From the NCBI GenBank assembly GCA_021779955.1, contig JAJXZS010000027.1:1-64000 (forward strand): a stretch of DNA of 64,000 bases, in the 5' to 3' direction. Both the position numbers and the translations under genes were made by a program. A model generated the notes under the pieces. The model did not search any database. It had not been told where the DNA came from and saw only the letters and a program-made list of their open reading frames with translations. The stretch comes from Chloroflexota bacterium. GTDB lineage: Bacteria > Chloroflexota > Anaerolineae > Anaerolineales > Anaerolineaceae. Below, piece after piece: positions 32,251-39,042 of this stretch. The stretch's first letter is position 1, and each line of letters starts with the position of its first letter.

Positions 32251-32322
32251 GGCGAGGTAGCTCAATGGTGGAGCAGTGGACTCATAAGCCATTGGATGTG
32301 GGTTCAAATCCCACCCTCGCCA
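32251..32322 (+). tRNA. tRNA with anticodon CAU (elongator Met; Ile2 not excluded)
   Basis: The full cloverleaf can be drawn: acceptor GGCGAGG/CCTCGCC, D stem GCTC/GAGC, anticodon loop CTCATAA with CAT at 32283-32285, five-base variable loop, T stem GTGGG/CCCAC with loop TTCAAAT, discriminator A. CCA is not encoded. The anticodon stem (GTGGA/GCCAT) has one A-G mismatch next to the loop. It lacks the three G-C pairs of initiator tRNA. CAU may instead be lysidine-modified tRNA-Ile, which sequence alone cannot settle. Confidence 0.95.
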
Positions 32323-32740
32323 CTTTTGATTTAAATCCCAAGAACAAAAAGGGTTTGCTGAAAAAGACCAGCACTTCGCAAATCCCACCCGCACCAATTT
32401 TAAGTACAAAGCAAGGTAACGTCGAATATGAACCCCCTGCAGATGATTGTGCTTCAACGGCGCACCAGACCTGCTACCTCGCCGAAAACATTCAACAACA
32501 GTACGCGTGAGGGCTGTCGCATTTTTGGGATCATAAATCCAAGCACTTGTTTCCCTGGAATCAACTGATGTATTATTTACATGGCAGGTCACGCTGTCTT
32601 TATTAACAAAATGGCGATAGTAGAAAATTCCGCCTATTCGGGAGAAGCAGCCAAAGCTATTGCTTGATGGATTTGCGGAACGCATGAAATGATAATTGCT
32701 CTCCGATGGTTAGGTTTGGGGTCTACAGAGGAGTTGCATC
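32323..32740 (+). other. Gene-poor stretch after the tRNA with a partial copy of the tRNA 3' arm
   Basis: No convincing gene. At 32378-32396 the 12 bases CAAATCCCACCC recur exactly as in the tRNA T arm (32305-32316), followed by GCACCA instead of TCGCCA. This may be a decayed attachment-site copy from an element that integrated at the tRNA. Confidence 0.45.
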
Positions 32741-33517
32741 ATGGAAAAAACACAAGGGGGTTGGAAAGTAATTATGATCGCTTTAGCAGCGGTCATTCTT
32801 CCCATTGTAGTCATTGGACTGTTCACCGATGGTGCAAATAAGAATTCAGGAAAAGCAGCGACATCGAGTCCAACAATTCTCTTCACTGAAATGCCTGTAG
32901 CTGTAACAGTCCTTCAAACACAAAGACCAATAGTGCCAACTACGGTTCCAACGATATTCGCTTCCTCCCAAACGGTACTCTCTTTGATATCCCAGACACC
33001 CACGGAAACTCCTACCATTACTTCATCCATTAGTTCGACTAATACTCCTAATATTACCTCAACACGTACCATAACAAATACGATTGCGCCTAGCCCCACC
33101 AAGGATTGCTTAGTGGATGTTCCGTCATTATTAGGTAAAGATGTTTTCCAGGTAGAACAAATTCTAGGGCCTACCATATTGATCACTCCAAACGATGATT
33201 ATGACGACCACACAGGTGGGGGAGAATATAGAGACTACCAAATTGGCGATTACTTGACTTTTATTTCGTTTGATAAATCCGGAATTGCTCGGATTTTTAC
33301 CGTGCTTGATGGCTTGGAGCAAGAAGGATATTCCCTCAATCAATGGCAAGAAATTCTTCCCCGCTTTGGAGTGAATATTGGATCTTTTCCTGATAAACAG
33401 GAACCAGCAGCTTTTTATTGGACGAATTATCAAGGATTATTCATTGGAATGGCCGCAGATGGTACATCGGGATTCCCAGTATGGACCGTAAAGATAGCTC
33501 AAAAAGGGTATGAATAA
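32741..33517 (+). CDS. Hypothetical membrane-anchored protein with Thr/Ser/Pro-rich stalk
   Basis: A 258-residue orphan. One transmembrane helix (about 9-27) is followed by a roughly 95-residue low-complexity stalk of Thr, Ser, Pro, Asn and Ile (about 35-128) and a 130-residue extracellular domain starting CLVDVPSLLGKDVFQVEQILG. That domain has Gly/Trp/Tyr-rich turns but matches nothing I know. The layout is that of surface proteins in Anaerolineae. Base composition is distinctly AT-rich compared with radC upstream, which suggests transfer. GAGGAG at 7-base spacing supports the start. Confidence 0.75.
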   Translation: MEKTQGGWKVIMIALAAVILPIVVIGLFTDGANKNSGKAATSSPTILFTEMPVAVTVLQTQRPIVPTTVPTIFASSQTVLSLISQTPTETPTITSSISSTNTPNITSTRTITNTIAPSPTKDCLVDVPSLLGKDVFQVEQILGPTILITPNDDYDDHTGGGEYRDYQIGDYLTFISFDKSGIARIFTVLDGLEQEGYSLNQWQEILPRFGVNIGSFPDKQEPAAFYWTNYQGLFIGMAADGTSGFPVWTVKIAQKGYE

Positions 33518-33580
33518 AGATTGATCACTTTGGGACAAATACTCACTTCGCAGGCTATGAGCACCGTCCAAAAGTAGGGT

Positions 33581-33596
33581 GCGTTCGATTTTAAAC
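33581..33596 (+). repeat. Imperfect 16-bp direct repeat, copy 1
   Basis: GCGTTCGATTTTAAAC matches 14 of 16 bases with the copy at 34581-34596, exactly 1,000 bp away. The two copies flank the next gene. Function unknown; this could be a remnant of an insertion boundary. Confidence 0.4.
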
Positions 33597-33720
33597 AATG
33601 CCAAGCGCAGTTGCGTGTAAGGGGTGCAACCCACCGGCTTTCATCAAATCCATGTGACCTGTCAGTCCTAACAATGAAGTTAGGCGAATCCGATTAGTTT
33701 AATTTAGCAGAGCATATATA

Positions 33721-34578
33721 TTGAGTCAACCAAGTAAATCTATTCTTGAAAAGAATGTAGAATACAGAAAACGCTTCTTGCGGGGGTATTCGATGATATT
33801 CAACTACCTAAAAGACATTTCCAAAGAATGGACTTCGTGGATATTCGCATTGTCTACACTCTTGGGTATTTACTCACAAGTCACTGGGAAGAATATTCTA
33901 TTTCTACCTTGGGTATATGGAGTTGTAGCATTGTTTTGCTTTATTGGAGCAAATATCCAAATCTATAATCAAATGAAGAAAAAAATGCGGCAATATGAAG
34001 GCGAGGAAGCGGACTTACAACTCGCGGTAAGCCATCCAGAGATATCTCTAAAGGTAAATCCTGGCCGTTTTGGCTATGAAGAAGATCGAGCAATAGGTAA
34101 GAATGGAATACCATTTGGCATTATTGTGCGTGTTGATTGCGAAATTGAAAATCTCGGACGAGAAATGGGGGTTTTTGAATGGGAGCTTTCGTCTACACTA
34201 TTAGGAAGCTTCTTAAAAATCACTGATATCGAACCAAATGGTAAATTTGCCAATTACAACAATCGCTCTCCAAATGGTTACCAGCTTAGTGATTTCTCAG
34301 GAGAAGTCAAAGGTAGGGAAAGAATTAATGGAGGGTGGAGTTTAGAACTTGAACCGTCTGATAATCACGTTGATGAATTTATAAAGCTTTTACTTGATCC
34401 AGGAAAACTTGAAATTGTCATTGTTTATTGGACAAAGAAGCTCGGGGGAAAAGGAAGAAAGAAGCAGGTCGTAATTGCTGCGGACCTATCGGGTTTGGTT
34501 TCTGATATTGCCGATCGATGGGAACGAGAAGGGTGGGTGAAATATACCCAATTCGTTCGTGAAGGAAAACTAAATTAG
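33721..34578 (+). CDS. Hypothetical membrane protein, AT-rich orphan
   Basis: A 285-residue protein not recognised. Two transmembrane helices (about 39-55 and 63-80) are followed by a basic coil (QMKKKMRQYEG) and a soluble C-terminal domain of about 190 residues with beta-rich pattern (IPFGIIVRVDCEIENLG, FEWELSSTLLGSF, LEIVIVYWTKK). A stop at 33700 limits the frame, leaving TTG at 33721 as the longest start, with a poor ribosome-binding site; an internal ATG at 33793 is possible but would remove part of the N-terminus. AT-rich like its neighbour and flanked by imperfect repeats. Confidence 0.65.
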   Translation: MSQPSKSILEKNVEYRKRFLRGYSMIFNYLKDISKEWTSWIFALSTLLGIYSQVTGKNILFLPWVYGVVALFCFIGANIQIYNQMKKKMRQYEGEEADLQLAVSHPEISLKVNPGRFGYEEDRAIGKNGIPFGIIVRVDCEIENLGREMGVFEWELSSTLLGSFLKITDIEPNGKFANYNNRSPNGYQLSDFSGEVKGRERINGGWSLELEPSDNHVDEFIKLLLDPGKLEIVIVYWTKKLGGKGRKKQVVIAADLSGLVSDIADRWEREGWVKYTQFVREGKLN

Positions 34579-34580
34579 GG

Positions 34581-34596
34581 GCGTTCGAGTTTGAAC
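34581..34596 (+). repeat. Imperfect 16-bp direct repeat, copy 2 (also a small palindrome)
   Basis: GCGTTCGAGTTTGAAC, extending to GAACGC, so that GCGTTC and GAACGC form an inverted repeat. It lies three bases after the stop codon of the flanked gene. Confidence 0.4.
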
Positions 34597-34689
34597 GCAC
34601 TTATTTCAATGGGGCATCAGCAATCCGAGCCACCTGCCAACCTCGTTTTCCATCTCGGTTTCTATCTCGCGAAGTCTGCGATCGCCCAC

Positions 34690-34709
34690 ATTTTTTAAGC
34701 TTAAAAAAT
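34690..34709. repeat. Perfect 20-bp AT palindrome
   Basis: ATTTTTTAAGC followed by its reverse complement, centred on an AAGCTT. It lies 11 bases above the orphan SOS-type promoter and may be a protein-binding site or a weak hairpin. Confidence 0.5.
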
Positions 34710-34720
34710 CCCAAACCCTC

Positions 34721-34748
34721 TTGACAAATAGAACATATGTGCTATAAT
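34721..34748 (+). promoter_or_regulatory. Consensus promoter overlapped by a LexA-like box, with no clear gene
   Basis: TTGACA (34721-34726), 16-base spacer and TATAAT (34743-34748). The spacer contains GAACATATGTGC at 34731-34742, one base off the Gram-positive SOS box GAAC-N4-GTTC, and the same GAAC-N4-GTGC occurs before uvrB in this window. The ATG at 34753 is only 4 bases below the -10 and its 89-codon frame does not look like a protein. The next real gene is the metalloprotease at 35044. Confidence 0.55.
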
Positions 34749-34984
34749 ATACATGGAAACATCCTGTACCTTTACAATTTATAGCTTCTCATTTACCTCT
34801 GCGTATGATTGTGGGTTGTCCTCAATGCTCAATTTAAAAGTAATCCAACCGCCAATCTCTTGTTCGCAGCCGCTGGTGAGCGATTCGTTTCGATTCATTC
34901 CCGCAGTTATCGAAAGCATCCCAAATTACTCTGAATTGTTGCCGTTAAGCAGTCCGGGACACCCAGGCCGCCACTGTTATCTTG

Positions 34985-35014
34985 TTGACTATACATCCAC
35001 GTTTATGCTAAACT
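34985..35014 (+). promoter_or_regulatory. Promoter of the M35-type protease gene
   Basis: TTGACT (34985-34990), 18-base spacer and TAAACT (35009-35014) preceded by TGC, about 30 bases before the ATG. Confidence 0.55.
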
Positions 35015-35043: not shown

Positions 35044-36102
35044 ATGAACAGGAAGATCTTTGGCATTTTTGTTATTTTTACCCTCATCATTGCCTTGTTG
35101 ATTACCGCAGGTGAAGCGAGAGCGTCTGCCAACGGCAGCCCGCTTGTCAGCCTGAGTGCAGACCAGGCCAAATACTCTGCCGCGCAGGACGTCCTGATCA
35201 CGGCCACGATCTCGAACCCCACCGGTCACTCGCTGCGCATTCTCAAGTGGTTCACCCCGGCGGATGGGCTTGAAGAGCCAATCTTGAAAGTGAGCGTGAA
35301 TGGACGGTCGGTGTCCTATACCGGCGCGGTGTATAAGCGTCCGGCGCCAACCGGCAGCGATTACATCACGCTCAAGAGCGGCGAATCGGTCACCTTCACC
35401 ATTCCATTGGGCGAGTATTATGACCTTTCGGCTACGGGTCGATACGAGATCGCTTATGCTGCTGCGTCGCCTGCTCTTTTCAACGAAAAAGGCAAGGCTG
35501 TCGAAACCCTGAGCTCCTCCAAGCTCGTTCTGGAGATTAAGGGACGATCCCCAAAAGTGAAACCCACCCCTCCGCCGCCGCCCCCGGATGGCGGGAGCAG
35601 TTTCACCAGTTGTTCGGTAACGCAACAGGCTATTCTGAACAACGCGCGCGAGGGAGCGATCCAGTATGCTTCTGGCGCCGACGCCTACCTGCAGCGCATC
35701 AACTCCGGCACTGAACGCTACGTGGAGTGGTTCGGCGTTTTCGACTCATCGCGGTACAACATCGTTGCTGATCATTTCGTTGCTATTGATGACGCATGGG
35801 TCAATGCGGGGGTCAATTTTGACTGCAAGTGCAAACAACCCTATTATGCCTACGTCTACCCAGACAAGCCTTACTATATTTATCTGTGCAAGGTCTTCTG
35901 GCAGGCGCCCCTGACAGGTACGGATTCGCAGGCAGGCACACTGATCCACGAGATGAGCCATTTTAACGTTGTCGCGCAGACGGATGACTATGTGTATGGT
36001 CAAACCGGGGCGATAAACCTCGCCATCACCAACCCCGCCCAGGCCATCATGAACGCGGATAACCACGAATATTTCGCCGAGAACAACCCTGCGCTCCCTT
36101 AG
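35044..36102 (+). CDS. Secreted M35 (deuterolysin/peptidyl-Lys endopeptidase-like) metalloprotease
   Basis: A 352-residue secreted protein: signal peptide (about 1-28, ending near ARASA), a beta-sandwich domain (about 30-165), a proline-rich hinge (PTPPPPPP) and a C-terminal protease domain. The aspzincin site is complete: HEMSH (about 300) for zinc and catalysis, then TDDYVYG, the family's GTxDxxYG-type third ligand motif, and a late NADNHEYFAEN. Four cysteines in the protease half could form disulfides. M35 enzymes are best known in fungi and a few bacteria, so its place in an accessory region suggests transfer. AAGGAG sets the start. Confidence 0.88.
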   Translation: MNRKIFGIFVIFTLIIALLITAGEARASANGSPLVSLSADQAKYSAAQDVLITATISNPTGHSLRILKWFTPADGLEEPILKVSVNGRSVSYTGAVYKRPAPTGSDYITLKSGESVTFTIPLGEYYDLSATGRYEIAYAAASPALFNEKGKAVETLSSSKLVLEIKGRSPKVKPTPPPPPPDGGSSFTSCSVTQQAILNNAREGAIQYASGADAYLQRINSGTERYVEWFGVFDSSRYNIVADHFVAIDDAWVNAGVNFDCKCKQPYYAYVYPDKPYYIYLCKVFWQAPLTGTDSQAGTLIHEMSHFNVVAQTDDYVYGQTGAINLAITNPAQAIMNADNHEYFAENNPALP

Positions 36103-36117
36103 TCCAGCGGCGATCAT

Positions 36118-36152
36118 AAAAAACAACTCCCCATCTGCAAAGATGGGGAGTT
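36118..36152 (-). terminator. Strong hairpin terminator reading leftward (displaced yihY terminator)
   Basis: A perfect 12-bp stem (AACTCCCCATCT / AGATGGGGAGTT, loop GCAA). On the minus strand it is followed by GTTTTTTATG, a terminator tail; on the plus strand no T run follows. The only minus-strand coding sequence that ends beside it is the yihY 3' remnant at 36163. Confidence 0.8.
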
Positions 36153-36162
36153 ACTGTGACCA

Positions 36163-36207
36163 TTATCGTCTGGTATGCCTGTCGATCGACGAGGTGAGGT
36201 GCATGCC
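36163..36207 (-). pseudogene. Remnant of the 3' end of yihY (last 14 codons plus stop)
   Basis: Encodes GMHLTSSIDRHTRR and stop, against GAHLTSSIDRHTKR and stop at the end of the intact yihY at 38134; 36 of 45 bases agree, including 23 consecutive ones. Upstream of this tail the minus-strand frame no longer resembles YihY. It and the terminator next to it look like the original end of yihY, cut off by an insertion. Confidence 0.7.
36173..36195 (+). repeat. Exact 23-bp direct repeat, left copy
   Basis: Begins GTATGCCTGTCGATC and ends GACGAGGT. Identical to 38144-38166. The repeats bracket about 1.97 kb containing the GT-C gene. Confidence 0.9.
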
Positions 36208-36455
36208 GGGACCATACTGTTCCCAAACCAACATGCCCGGGCGTAGACGATCGACGTCAGCGGTCCCAATCATCACTTCGCCGTCGCCGGCCGTGATTGT
36301 GTAGGAACAAAAGTAAATTGCCGGCAATCTCGATAAAGATACTATAATCAATGCATCCTTCAGGAATCTACGCTGCTGTGATGCGAGATTATCTTGCGGA
36401 TTCGCAAATTTGAAATGGACATAAATGCAACCCATTCCGCCCTTATTTCTGTGCT
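36208..36455 (+). other. Non-coding stretch upstream of the GT-C gene
   Basis: Contains a TATAAT at 36353-36358 that may serve the gene at 36456, with a weak -35. A 15-codon ORF from ATG 36425 overlaps the next start. Nothing else is recognisable. Confidence 0.4.
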
Positions 36456-37967
36456 ATGGATCAAGAGAATAATAACACGCTAAAAGCCGGCGGTCTGCCA
36501 TTCTCAATTGACCGGCACGCTCTACTTCTTATCATACCAATCCTGGTGTTTGGTCTTTTGGTATCTTATACCTGGTCATACACCCTTGACGATTCGTTTA
36601 TCTTCTTACATTACGCTCAGAATCTTGGCTCAGGGCATGGTCTGGTCTGGAATATTGGAGAAATCCTCCCGACGGAAGGTTACACCTCCATACTTTGGGT
36701 TTTGATATTATCCTTTTTTGCGTTTCTGCAGGCCGACCTGGTGACCGTGGCAAAAATTATCGGGATCATCCTTGTCCTCCTGACAGCCTGGCTGGGTTTT
36801 AGCGAACTTATCAAAAGGCAGCATCGCTTTTCGGCGATCGCATTTGTTTTTCTTTTCCTCTGTAGTCCTTACACAGCATTAAATGCCATTTCGGGGATGG
36901 ATACCGCTCTGGCGATCTTCCTGGTGACGTCGTTCATCCTGATCATGAGCAGGTTTGTCGATGCTCCTACACCTCGAAAAGCTGCCTTGTGTGGCATCGT
37001 CGCTCTGGCGCTATGCCTGAGCCGACCGGAAGCGGTCATTCTGGTCATCTTTACCATGTTTCTGGTGGGAGTTCTATTTCCATCAAGCCGAAAGACACTG
37101 TTCGTCTATGGGTTCCTTCCATTTGTGATCTTGGGCGCTGCCTATTTTGCCTGGCGCTACGCATACTTCGGCATGCTGTTCCCATTGCCTTTCTATATCA
37201 AGCAGGCAAACGTGGGCCTGTTTGCCGGCCTTTCAGATGTAAGGGCGTATTTGTTTTTTGTACTGCCCATCCTGATCCTGGCTTTCTTCGGCATCAAATG
37301 GCGCTCTGCAAAAACCCTCGCGCTCGCCGGAGGCGTTCTTGCGCTTATGATCTACTACGTATTCCCCAGGCACCTGATGGGGATGCACTTTAGGTACTTG
37401 TTTCCGCTTTACCCTGCGATTGTTTTGGCTGCCAGCCTCGGCATCGAAAACCTCTTCCGCAAGCGCGCGTTGGGAATTTCGTTGGCTGTAACCGCTGTCT
37501 TGCTGGCATTCGTGGGGCAGCAGGTCGTTGGAGGGCGCAGCGAGGTCATTACTGCGCTAGCGTATTCCACGAACCTTGAAAGATCTTACGTTCAATTGGG
37601 TAAGGATCTTGCCACAAGGGGCAGCGCCCATTGGATCGCTCTGGGCTCCGTGGGCGCCGTGCCCTATTACTCAGGCTGGCAGGTTCTGGACACGTTCGGG
37701 TTGAACAACCCCGTCATCGCCGGAATGACCGATCCCGGACAAAGGGTGGCGTACATTTGGTCACTTAAGCCTGACCTTTTGGTGCTGGTCTCTACGGATG
37801 CAGCCAATATGAAAGCGCTTCACAATTACGACCAGCTCCTGTATCAGACAGCCGATTCTCAAGGATATACCCACGGCTGCACATTCAAATTTAACGATAA
37901 TTATTATCTTTGGCTGTATGCGCGCGCCGGGACACAACTCTCGAATTTTGCATGTGTTCAAACATGA
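36456..37967 (+). CDS. GT-C-type membrane glycosyltransferase (arabinofuranosyltransferase-like)
   Basis: A 503-residue polytopic protein with about ten to eleven hydrophobic helices. The first periplasmic loop contains LDDSFIFLHYAQNLGSGHG and PTEGYTSILW, the pattern of polyprenyl-phosphate-sugar-dependent GT-C transferases of the AftB-like group, with the catalytic acidic pair DD at about 45-46. The last 110 residues form an outer soluble domain. No Shine-Dalgarno precedes the ATG. It stands alone inside a segment bracketed by a 23-bp repeat of the yihY end, so it appears to be cargo added to this locus. The sugar and acceptor are unknown. Confidence 0.82.
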   Translation: MDQENNNTLKAGGLPFSIDRHALLLIIPILVFGLLVSYTWSYTLDDSFIFLHYAQNLGSGHGLVWNIGEILPTEGYTSILWVLILSFFAFLQADLVTVAKIIGIILVLLTAWLGFSELIKRQHRFSAIAFVFLFLCSPYTALNAISGMDTALAIFLVTSFILIMSRFVDAPTPRKAALCGIVALALCLSRPEAVILVIFTMFLVGVLFPSSRKTLFVYGFLPFVILGAAYFAWRYAYFGMLFPLPFYIKQANVGLFAGLSDVRAYLFFVLPILILAFFGIKWRSAKTLALAGGVLALMIYYVFPRHLMGMHFRYLFPLYPAIVLAASLGIENLFRKRALGISLAVTAVLLAFVGQQVVGGRSEVITALAYSTNLERSYVQLGKDLATRGSAHWIALGSVGAVPYYSGWQVLDTFGLNNPVIAGMTDPGQRVAYIWSLKPDLLVLVSTDAANMKALHNYDQLLYQTADSQGYTHGCTFKFNDNYYLWLYARAGTQLSNFACVQT

Positions 37968-38028
37968 ATTGACGGTTTGGATTTAACTGCCCGGTGGATT
38001 TCTCCATCTTCTTGATGATCGATAAAAG

Positions 38029-38075
38029 GCTCAAGCGAAAAAAAGTGTTCGCCTTCTCACTTAAGACGCTTGAGC
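38029..38075. repeat. 9-bp inverted repeat near the right edge of the inserted segment
   Basis: GCTCAAGCG at 38029-38037 and CGCTTGAGC at 38067-38075, perfect complements, 29 bases apart. Confidence 0.5.
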
Positions 38076-38133
38076 ACAATCTGAGAAAAACTCGGGTGTC
38101 ACACTGCTAGACGTAAACTCAGGCTAGTGGCAT

Positions 38134-39042
38134 TTATCTCTTCGTATGCCTGTCGATCGACGAGGTCAAATGCGCGCCAAACAGGATGATCGTGCCGTTC
38201 ATGTAGATCCACGCCAGCAGGGCGATGATCTTGCCAAGCGAGCCATAGACGATCTCGTAATTGGCCATGCCGCTGCTCAAGTAGGCGTTGAATCCGATGG
38301 TGATGCCCTGCCACGCGGATGCTGTGACCACGGCGCCGATGAAGGCTGCCAGCTTTTGCACCTTGATCTGCGGCACCAGGTAGTATAAACCGTAGAACAT
38401 CAACACGCGCAGCGCATTGGGCAGAACGGTGGTGATCAATGCTGACGAAAGCAACTGGCTCAGCCCCAGTGCTTGAAGGTCGATGCCGAAGTTGCTGAAC
38501 AGGTTGATAAAGGTGTTCGAGAACGAGGAGAGGATCAGCAGCACAGCCAGCGAGCCGATGATGGCGAGCGAGACCAGGCGCATCCGGATGAAGCTGTGCG
38601 GCGCAGCCGCCGGCCAGGCCGAGTTGACATTGCGGATGAGCGTCGAAAACACCGATGTGGACGACCAGAGCAAGCCAAGCAGCGCCAGGATGGATACGGC
38701 GCCTCTCTGGGCAAAGATCTGCTGGATATTCGAAAGGATCAGGTCTTGCGAGTTCGGGATGACCTTGGGGATCAATTCCAGAAGTTCGCGTTCGACGACG
38801 GTCTTGTCCACCAGGTAGGAACCCATGGCGACGAAGCTCAGGATCAGGGGGAAGAGCGAGAACAGCGTGTAGTACGCCAGGCTGGCGGAGGCTTCCGCGC
38901 CTTTGGCGTTCGAGAACGTCGAAAACGCGCCTTTCACGATCTTCACAGTGAGGTGCAGGGCGCTCTGGACTCCGACCTGCAGGTTCAAAGCGACATTTGA
39001 CGGCGTCAGTGTTTCCCGCTTCTTTTGATCCATGGTTCTCAT
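38134..39042 (-). CDS. yihY: YihY/BrkB family membrane protein
   Basis: A 302-residue inner-membrane protein with six helices. Family landmarks: ASLAYYTLFSLFPLILSFVAMGSYLV (its core AYYTLFSLFPL at about 58-68), SSTSVFSTLIRNVNSAW, and near the end GSLGKIIALLAWIYMNGTIILFGAHL. The old name RNase BN for relatives was an error; function is unknown. The start could be ATG at 39042 or at 39033. Its last 23 bases of coding sequence recur at 36173-36195 as one side of an insertion. Confidence 0.92.
   Translation of the reverse strand: MRTMDQKKRETLTPSNVALNLQVGVQSALHLTVKIVKGAFSTFSNAKGAEASASLAYYTLFSLFPLILSFVAMGSYLVDKTVVERELLELIPKVIPNSQDLILSNIQQIFAQRGAVSILALLGLLWSSTSVFSTLIRNVNSAWPAAAPHSFIRMRLVSLAIIGSLAVLLILSSFSNTFINLFSNFGIDLQALGLSQLLSSALITTVLPNALRVLMFYGLYYLVPQIKVQKLAAFIGAVVTASAWQGITIGFNAYLSSGMANYEIVYGSLGKIIALLAWIYMNGTIILFGAHLTSSIDRHTKR
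38144..38166 (+). repeat. Exact 23-bp direct repeat, right copy (inside the yihY 3' end)
   Basis: Same sequence as 36173-36195, here encoding the C-terminal residues LTSSIDRHT region of YihY on the minus strand. Confidence 0.9.

Follow-up and report, generated by a model that had tools for sequence, protein, structure and literature searches.

A probable one-gene insertion at the 3' end of yihY in a Chloroflexota genome, with a similar arrangement in a second species of the genus

The cis-mobilizable elements (CIMEs) of Streptococcus salivarius, as described in PMC7563491, measure 1.2-13 kb and occur in composite islands at the 3' ends of rpmG, rpsI, fda and rplL. For Dehalococcoides, which belongs to the same phylum as the genome studied here, the account in PMC3146451 gives ssrA islands with 20-bp repeats of the target 3' end, 15 of them without an integration module. 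In the TIGER/Islander survey 43.4% of the islands lay in protein-coding sequences; an integrase was required and islands of less than 2 kb were excluded (PMC12424338). Hotspots without mobility genes, in which recombination takes place at flanking core genes, are described as common in PMC5635113, and one-sided homologous recombination (homology-facilitated illegitimate recombination, HFIR) is documented in PMC3240628.

The locus described here was found in a stretch of 64,000 nucleotides (the window) from an Anaerolineaceae genome, G000. Like the CIMEs in the published description, it consists of a small cargo between repeats of the 3' end of a protein-coding gene, without apparent recombination or transfer genes. 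The borders are exact 23-bp copies in the window and a 67-bp copy in a second species, G003; the insert contains one glycosyltransferase-type ORF, and no match to PF00589 was obtained on the contig of the window. The CIMEs are described in tandem with ICEs or IMEs that share their site, whereas at yihY no element of this kind was found; the insert here may be mobile. As in the Dehalococcoides ssrA islands, repeats of the target 3' end border variable cargo. The target of those islands is reported to be the tmRNA, with the serine integrase DsiB in sibling islands, whereas the target here is yihY and no match to PF07508 was present anywhere in the G000 genome. A regenerated target and a displaced fragment mark the ends, as in the TIGER/Islander islands, but no integrase gene was present inside the insert. 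The locus also resembles the hotspots of PMC5635113, where cargo varies while the core genes around it stay fixed and no integrase is present; the mechanism given there, double homologous recombination, should by our reasoning leave no stump of a flanking gene. The nearest known kind is an integrase-less, att-flanked islet similar to a CIME, which the insert resembles.

The intact yihY/brkB gene from the ORF list occupies positions 38134-39042 on the minus strand and encodes 302 amino acids (PF03631, E 1.8e-48; TIGR00765, E 2.9e-33). Two exact direct copies of the 23-bp word ACCTCGTCGATCGACAGGCATAC were present on the minus strand at 36173-36195 and 38144-38166, with a spacing of 1971 bp. With up to three mismatches allowed the window contained no third match, and the expectation from shuffled sequence was 0.00. 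The right copy, which is similar to an attachment site, lies inside the last codons of yihY (38134-38178). The left copy lies inside a stump of 14 codons plus TAA (36163-36207, minus strand), which is probably the displaced native end of the gene. The stump encodes GMHLTSSIDRHTRR followed by a stop, compared with GAHLTSSIDRHTKR and the identical stop in intact yihY, which amounts to two substitutions in 14 residues. When the whole 2.83-Mb assembly was searched with a 121-bp stump query, only the stump and the yihY end were found. The ungapped match between stump and yihY extends over 52 bp with 12 mismatches, all 12 of which fall outside the 23-bp core, and an exact run of at least 23 resulted from only 0.3% of random placements of 12 mismatches.

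An intrinsic terminator was found behind the stump at 36122-36155 on the minus strand (15 pairs, -23.7 kcal/mol, fold z -4.9). Read from 36155 to 36122, it is placed and oriented as would be anticipated for the original yihY end. With respect to the target, the rebuilt yihY and the displaced fragment are situated at opposite ends of the insert. An earlier sequence-only reading of this DNA had reported an exact 23-bp repeat around about 1.97 kb, a right copy in the end of intact yihY and a left copy in a 14-residue stump with two substitutions and the same stop, a strong leftward terminator beyond the stump and no visible integrase; each of these observations was reproduced.

That reading had also raised the option that the stump belongs to a complete unrelated gene. 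A 90-aa ORF (36163-36435) runs through the stump in the same frame, but this ORF had no Pfam or NCBIfam match. In a comparison with 61 genomes it matched its own locus, the end of yihY in G000 and in G015, the nearest relative, and otherwise only noise with E values of 0.2-1; nothing coherent was seen in the frames around seven of the noise matches. Together with the shuffle expectation and the recurrence of the layout in an independent assembly, this makes chance, an unrelated gene under the stump or an assembly artefact an extremely improbable explanation.

The segment between the cores (36196-38143, 1948 bp) has a GC content of 49.7%, determined on 36201-38143, and contains one long ORF. 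This cargo gene (36456-37967, plus strand) encodes 503 amino acids and is a putative membrane glycosyltransferase of the GT-C type. The assignment, also made from the sequence alone, comes from distant homologues and from a match to NF047440 (putative glycosyltransferase) with E 2e-9; this match is below the curated cut-off, and no Pfam match was obtained. The identity to proteins of relatives was 24-30%. Of 15 further genomes of the genus that were compared, two gave a match, with at best 30% identity, and none contained a close relative of the cargo. Among the 61 genomes searched 28, with G000 counted, contained a match, and none was found to be a donor joining yihY to the same cargo. Seven plasmid records matched at 25-34% identity, including one annotated as GT family 39 at 25%. 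A phage or plasmid source was rejected, as there was no phage match and the plasmid matches did not exceed these identities. An insertion sequence or transposon was likewise rejected, because the ends of the insert carry no inverted arms and the long ORF is not a transposase according to Pfam and NCBIfam. A second terminator-like hairpin lies between the cargo and intact yihY (38030-38065, minus strand); it is weak, with a fold z of -1.9.

The second case was found in Chloroflexi MAG X2_MetaBAT.11 (G003), another species of the genus. Here contig C46 ends with yihY, and a yihY stump of 22 codons is located near the start of contig C22. The two have in common an exact overlap of 99 bp that is absent from the rest of the G003 assembly, so that they most likely adjoin. 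On the joined contigs the order is radC, tRNA-Met, stump, a 209-codon ORF of the lipoprotein type and yihY, with a period of 890 bp. The repeated block is identical in 64 of 67 bp, and two of the three differences look derived in the stump when read against relatives. The cargo is wholly different from that of G000. The two inserts had no common ends and shared only words of 9-15 bp with E values of 0.17 or worse, which is the level of chance. The G003 yihY gene contains a 29-bp tandem duplication (L050:5517-5574) that shifts the frame ahead of the rebuilt end; in view of this, the function of the gene is questionable unless the assembly is at fault.

The exact core corresponds to the same 23-bp yihY interval in G000 and G003, and in both species it is bounded on either side by a mismatch. 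Core mismatches numbered zero within each genome compared with three between the two stumps. Each stump is thus closer to its own yihY than to the other stump, which suggests independent events or repeated homogenisation; most simply, the two cases are read as separate insertions into the end of the same gene. Alternatively, a single old insertion in a common ancestor could have had its cargo swapped between fixed repeats and been lost in G015. The border of radC, tRNA-Met and yihY is common to G000, G003 and G015, as is a displaced tRNA end, which is consistent with such an ancestral event. It would however need repeated homogenisation to account for stumps that match their own yihY, and G015 shows no stump; this history is considered quite improbable.

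An insertion into the yihY 3' end is well supported by this arrangement. As to how it arose, site-specific integration, by a recombinase that worked in trans or is no longer present, is favoured with a probability of about 0.5. According to this proposal, a small non-replicating segment with one cargo gene would enter the yihY 3' end by site-specific recombination at a site of about 23 bp made up of the TSSIDRHT codons. This segment would bring its own version of the last yihY codons, so that yihY stays whole, while the original yihY end and its terminator would be displaced by about 2 kb to the left and form the stump. With a recombinase that was supplied in trans or has been lost, the segment would be an islet resembling a cis-mobilizable element, and it may still be mobile. 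This explanation is favoured by the exact core, the shared 23-bp interval and the recurrence in a second species. It is weakened by inserts without a recombinase, by differing left edges and by inserts without common ends, and further by the lack of a virus contig with the motif and of a clean empty site and by the 29-bp duplication in G003. The earlier claim of an integration that rebuilt the yihY end therefore held in part: an insertion with a displaced native end is backed by the orientation of the terminator, by a cargo without a close relative in the genus and by the G003 layout with other cargo, while the action of a site-specific recombinase is plausible.

The left edge of homology lies at about 14 codons in G000 compared with about 22 in G003. 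Such differing edges would be expected from HFIR, in which DNA of a relative carrying yihY and cargo recombines within yihY and the other side is end-joined just inside the end of the recipient yihY. The leftover native yihY end would then be the stump, no recombinase would be needed, and the scar would be nearly the same as that of site-specific integration. HFIR also accounts for the missing integrase, the single-gene cargo and the absence of common insert ends, and an insertion at a convergent gene border (yihY versus radC/tRNA) is likely to be harmless. A protein of the ComEC family of DNA-uptake channels was found in G000, G003 and G015; as an E. coli control scored as well, this is weak evidence. 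HFIR is nevertheless hard to reconcile with an exact core at the same 23-bp interval in both species, and 12 of 12 mismatches outside the core are unlikely (0.3%) for simply diverged orthologues. It also predicts scars at many genes, and yihY was alone among 378 ORFs. HFIR is regarded as a strong rival of site-specific integration, though a less probable one.

The close agreement of the G003 copies (64 of 67 bp), together with the two differences that look derived in the stump, would also fit template switching, in which a replication fork leaves the yihY end, copies foreign DNA and returns about 45-70 bp upstream, after which the stump decays. Template switching leaves the recurrence at a single gene unexplained and fails on the poor arms beside a perfect core in G000; it is judged improbable.

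No recombinase was found in the insert of G000 or G003 or on the contigs carrying either locus. Elsewhere in the G000 genome ten matches to PF00589 were obtained, and supply in trans by one of these tyrosine recombinase candidates is possible. At G000:C27:61167-62437 two neighbouring tyrosine recombinase matches point in opposite directions. The virus contigs contained neither the yihY-end motif nor a relative of yihY, and in the fetched loci no stump-bearing element at yihY was found beyond those of G000 and G003.

In G015 (UBA8906), whose YihY is 79% identical, there was no stump at yihY. Between yihY and tRNA-Met this genome has a gene for a Y1-type transposase, REP-like repeats and a run of 42 N. 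No stumps were found in six further loci of the genus or in 14 loci of the family or order, with 144 to 9000 bp of downstream DNA covered; several of these 14 encode an extended YihY C-terminus that is not homologous to that of G000. The terminator sequence of G000 was absent from 51 loci, so that a clean empty site joining yihY to the terminator was not found; G015, although without a stump, has another insertion and the N run. A degenerate pattern of the yihY end occurred in 9 of 147 family genomes, with two copies only in G000 and G003. A scan of a GTDB-based collection gave eight loci, all from genomes already compared.

The frequency of such scars was determined by counting end copies of non-overlapping ORFs of at least 100 aa, an end copy being at least 15 nt from the last 66 bp of the ORF within 8 kb downstream. 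In the window and 20 sampled stretches of G000 (447 kb) one of 378 ORFs had an end copy, and this was yihY. A separate count across 28 loci with 411 ORFs (the window, nine of the genus, 14 of the family or order and four named records repeating genus contigs) gave three matches: that of yihY and a pair in L085, of which one was a palindrome. With these counts, a general habit of the genome or the family was rejected as the origin of the scar. As the scar is rare in G000 yet recurs at yihY in G003, the result speaks for a property of the site. A further reading, considered rather unlikely, is that one-gene cassettes of a single family have their home at the yihY 3' end in this Anaerolineaceae genus; they would differ in their cargo genes, each would bring a spare yihY end, and a recombinase encoded outside the cassettes would insert and swap them. 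At L085:5440-5790 a 26-bp palindromic word in the end of a 116-aa ORF recurs 1.8 kb downstream.

In the literature collection searched there was no report of yihY/brkB as an integration target and no paper combining yihY with attB. It is proposed that yihY/brkB is a new target gene, with a second example in another species. Because TIGER/Islander needs an integrase and at least 2 kb, inserts of 1.97 and 0.89 kb would escape that survey, and single-gene segments that rebuild the target end would be missed by it. The occurrence of such an event at one gene in each of two species suggests that these segments may be a regular route of entry into these bacteria for surface-sugar and secreted-protein genes. 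A precise 23-bp site is now available for testing integration at yihY.

The stump and the insert belong to a variable region, since accessory genes, partly of 38-44% GC compared with 55-60% in the host, fill the space to the left of the stump up to tRNA-Met and radC. The other border is formed by the tRNA-Met gene adjoining radC (32251-32323, plus strand; ARAGORN), and this radC/tRNA-Met neighbour is common to G000, G003 and G015. A close radC-yihY border was seen only in these three genomes; in G009, G005 and G004 both genes are on the same contig at a separation of 12-20 kb. The region from tRNA-Met/radC to yihY appears from these comparisons to be a small insertion hotspot in the clade. A displaced copy of the tRNA-Met 3' end is present at 32380-32397 on the plus strand, with three mismatches in 18 positions and a shuffle expectation of 0.02, and also occurs in G003 and G015 at roughly similar spacing. 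At 32305-32401 this displaced end, about 56 bp past tRNA-Met, looks like a very small integration remnant.

Beyond the stump lies an accessory gene for an M35-type metallopeptidase (35044-36102, plus strand; Aspzincin_M35, PF14521, E 9e-46). Two accessory ORFs of 258 and 285 aa with 38-44% GC and without a Pfam or NCBIfam match are present at 32500-35000, between this peptidase gene and tRNA-Met. The 285-aa ORF is flanked by the REP-like palindromic words GTGCGTTC / GAACGCAC at 33579 and 34593, which are also found around the Y1 transposase gene of G015 (L043). A perfect plus-strand sigma-70 consensus, TTGACA-16-TATAAT, at 34721-34748 precedes the M35 peptidase gene by about 300 bp.
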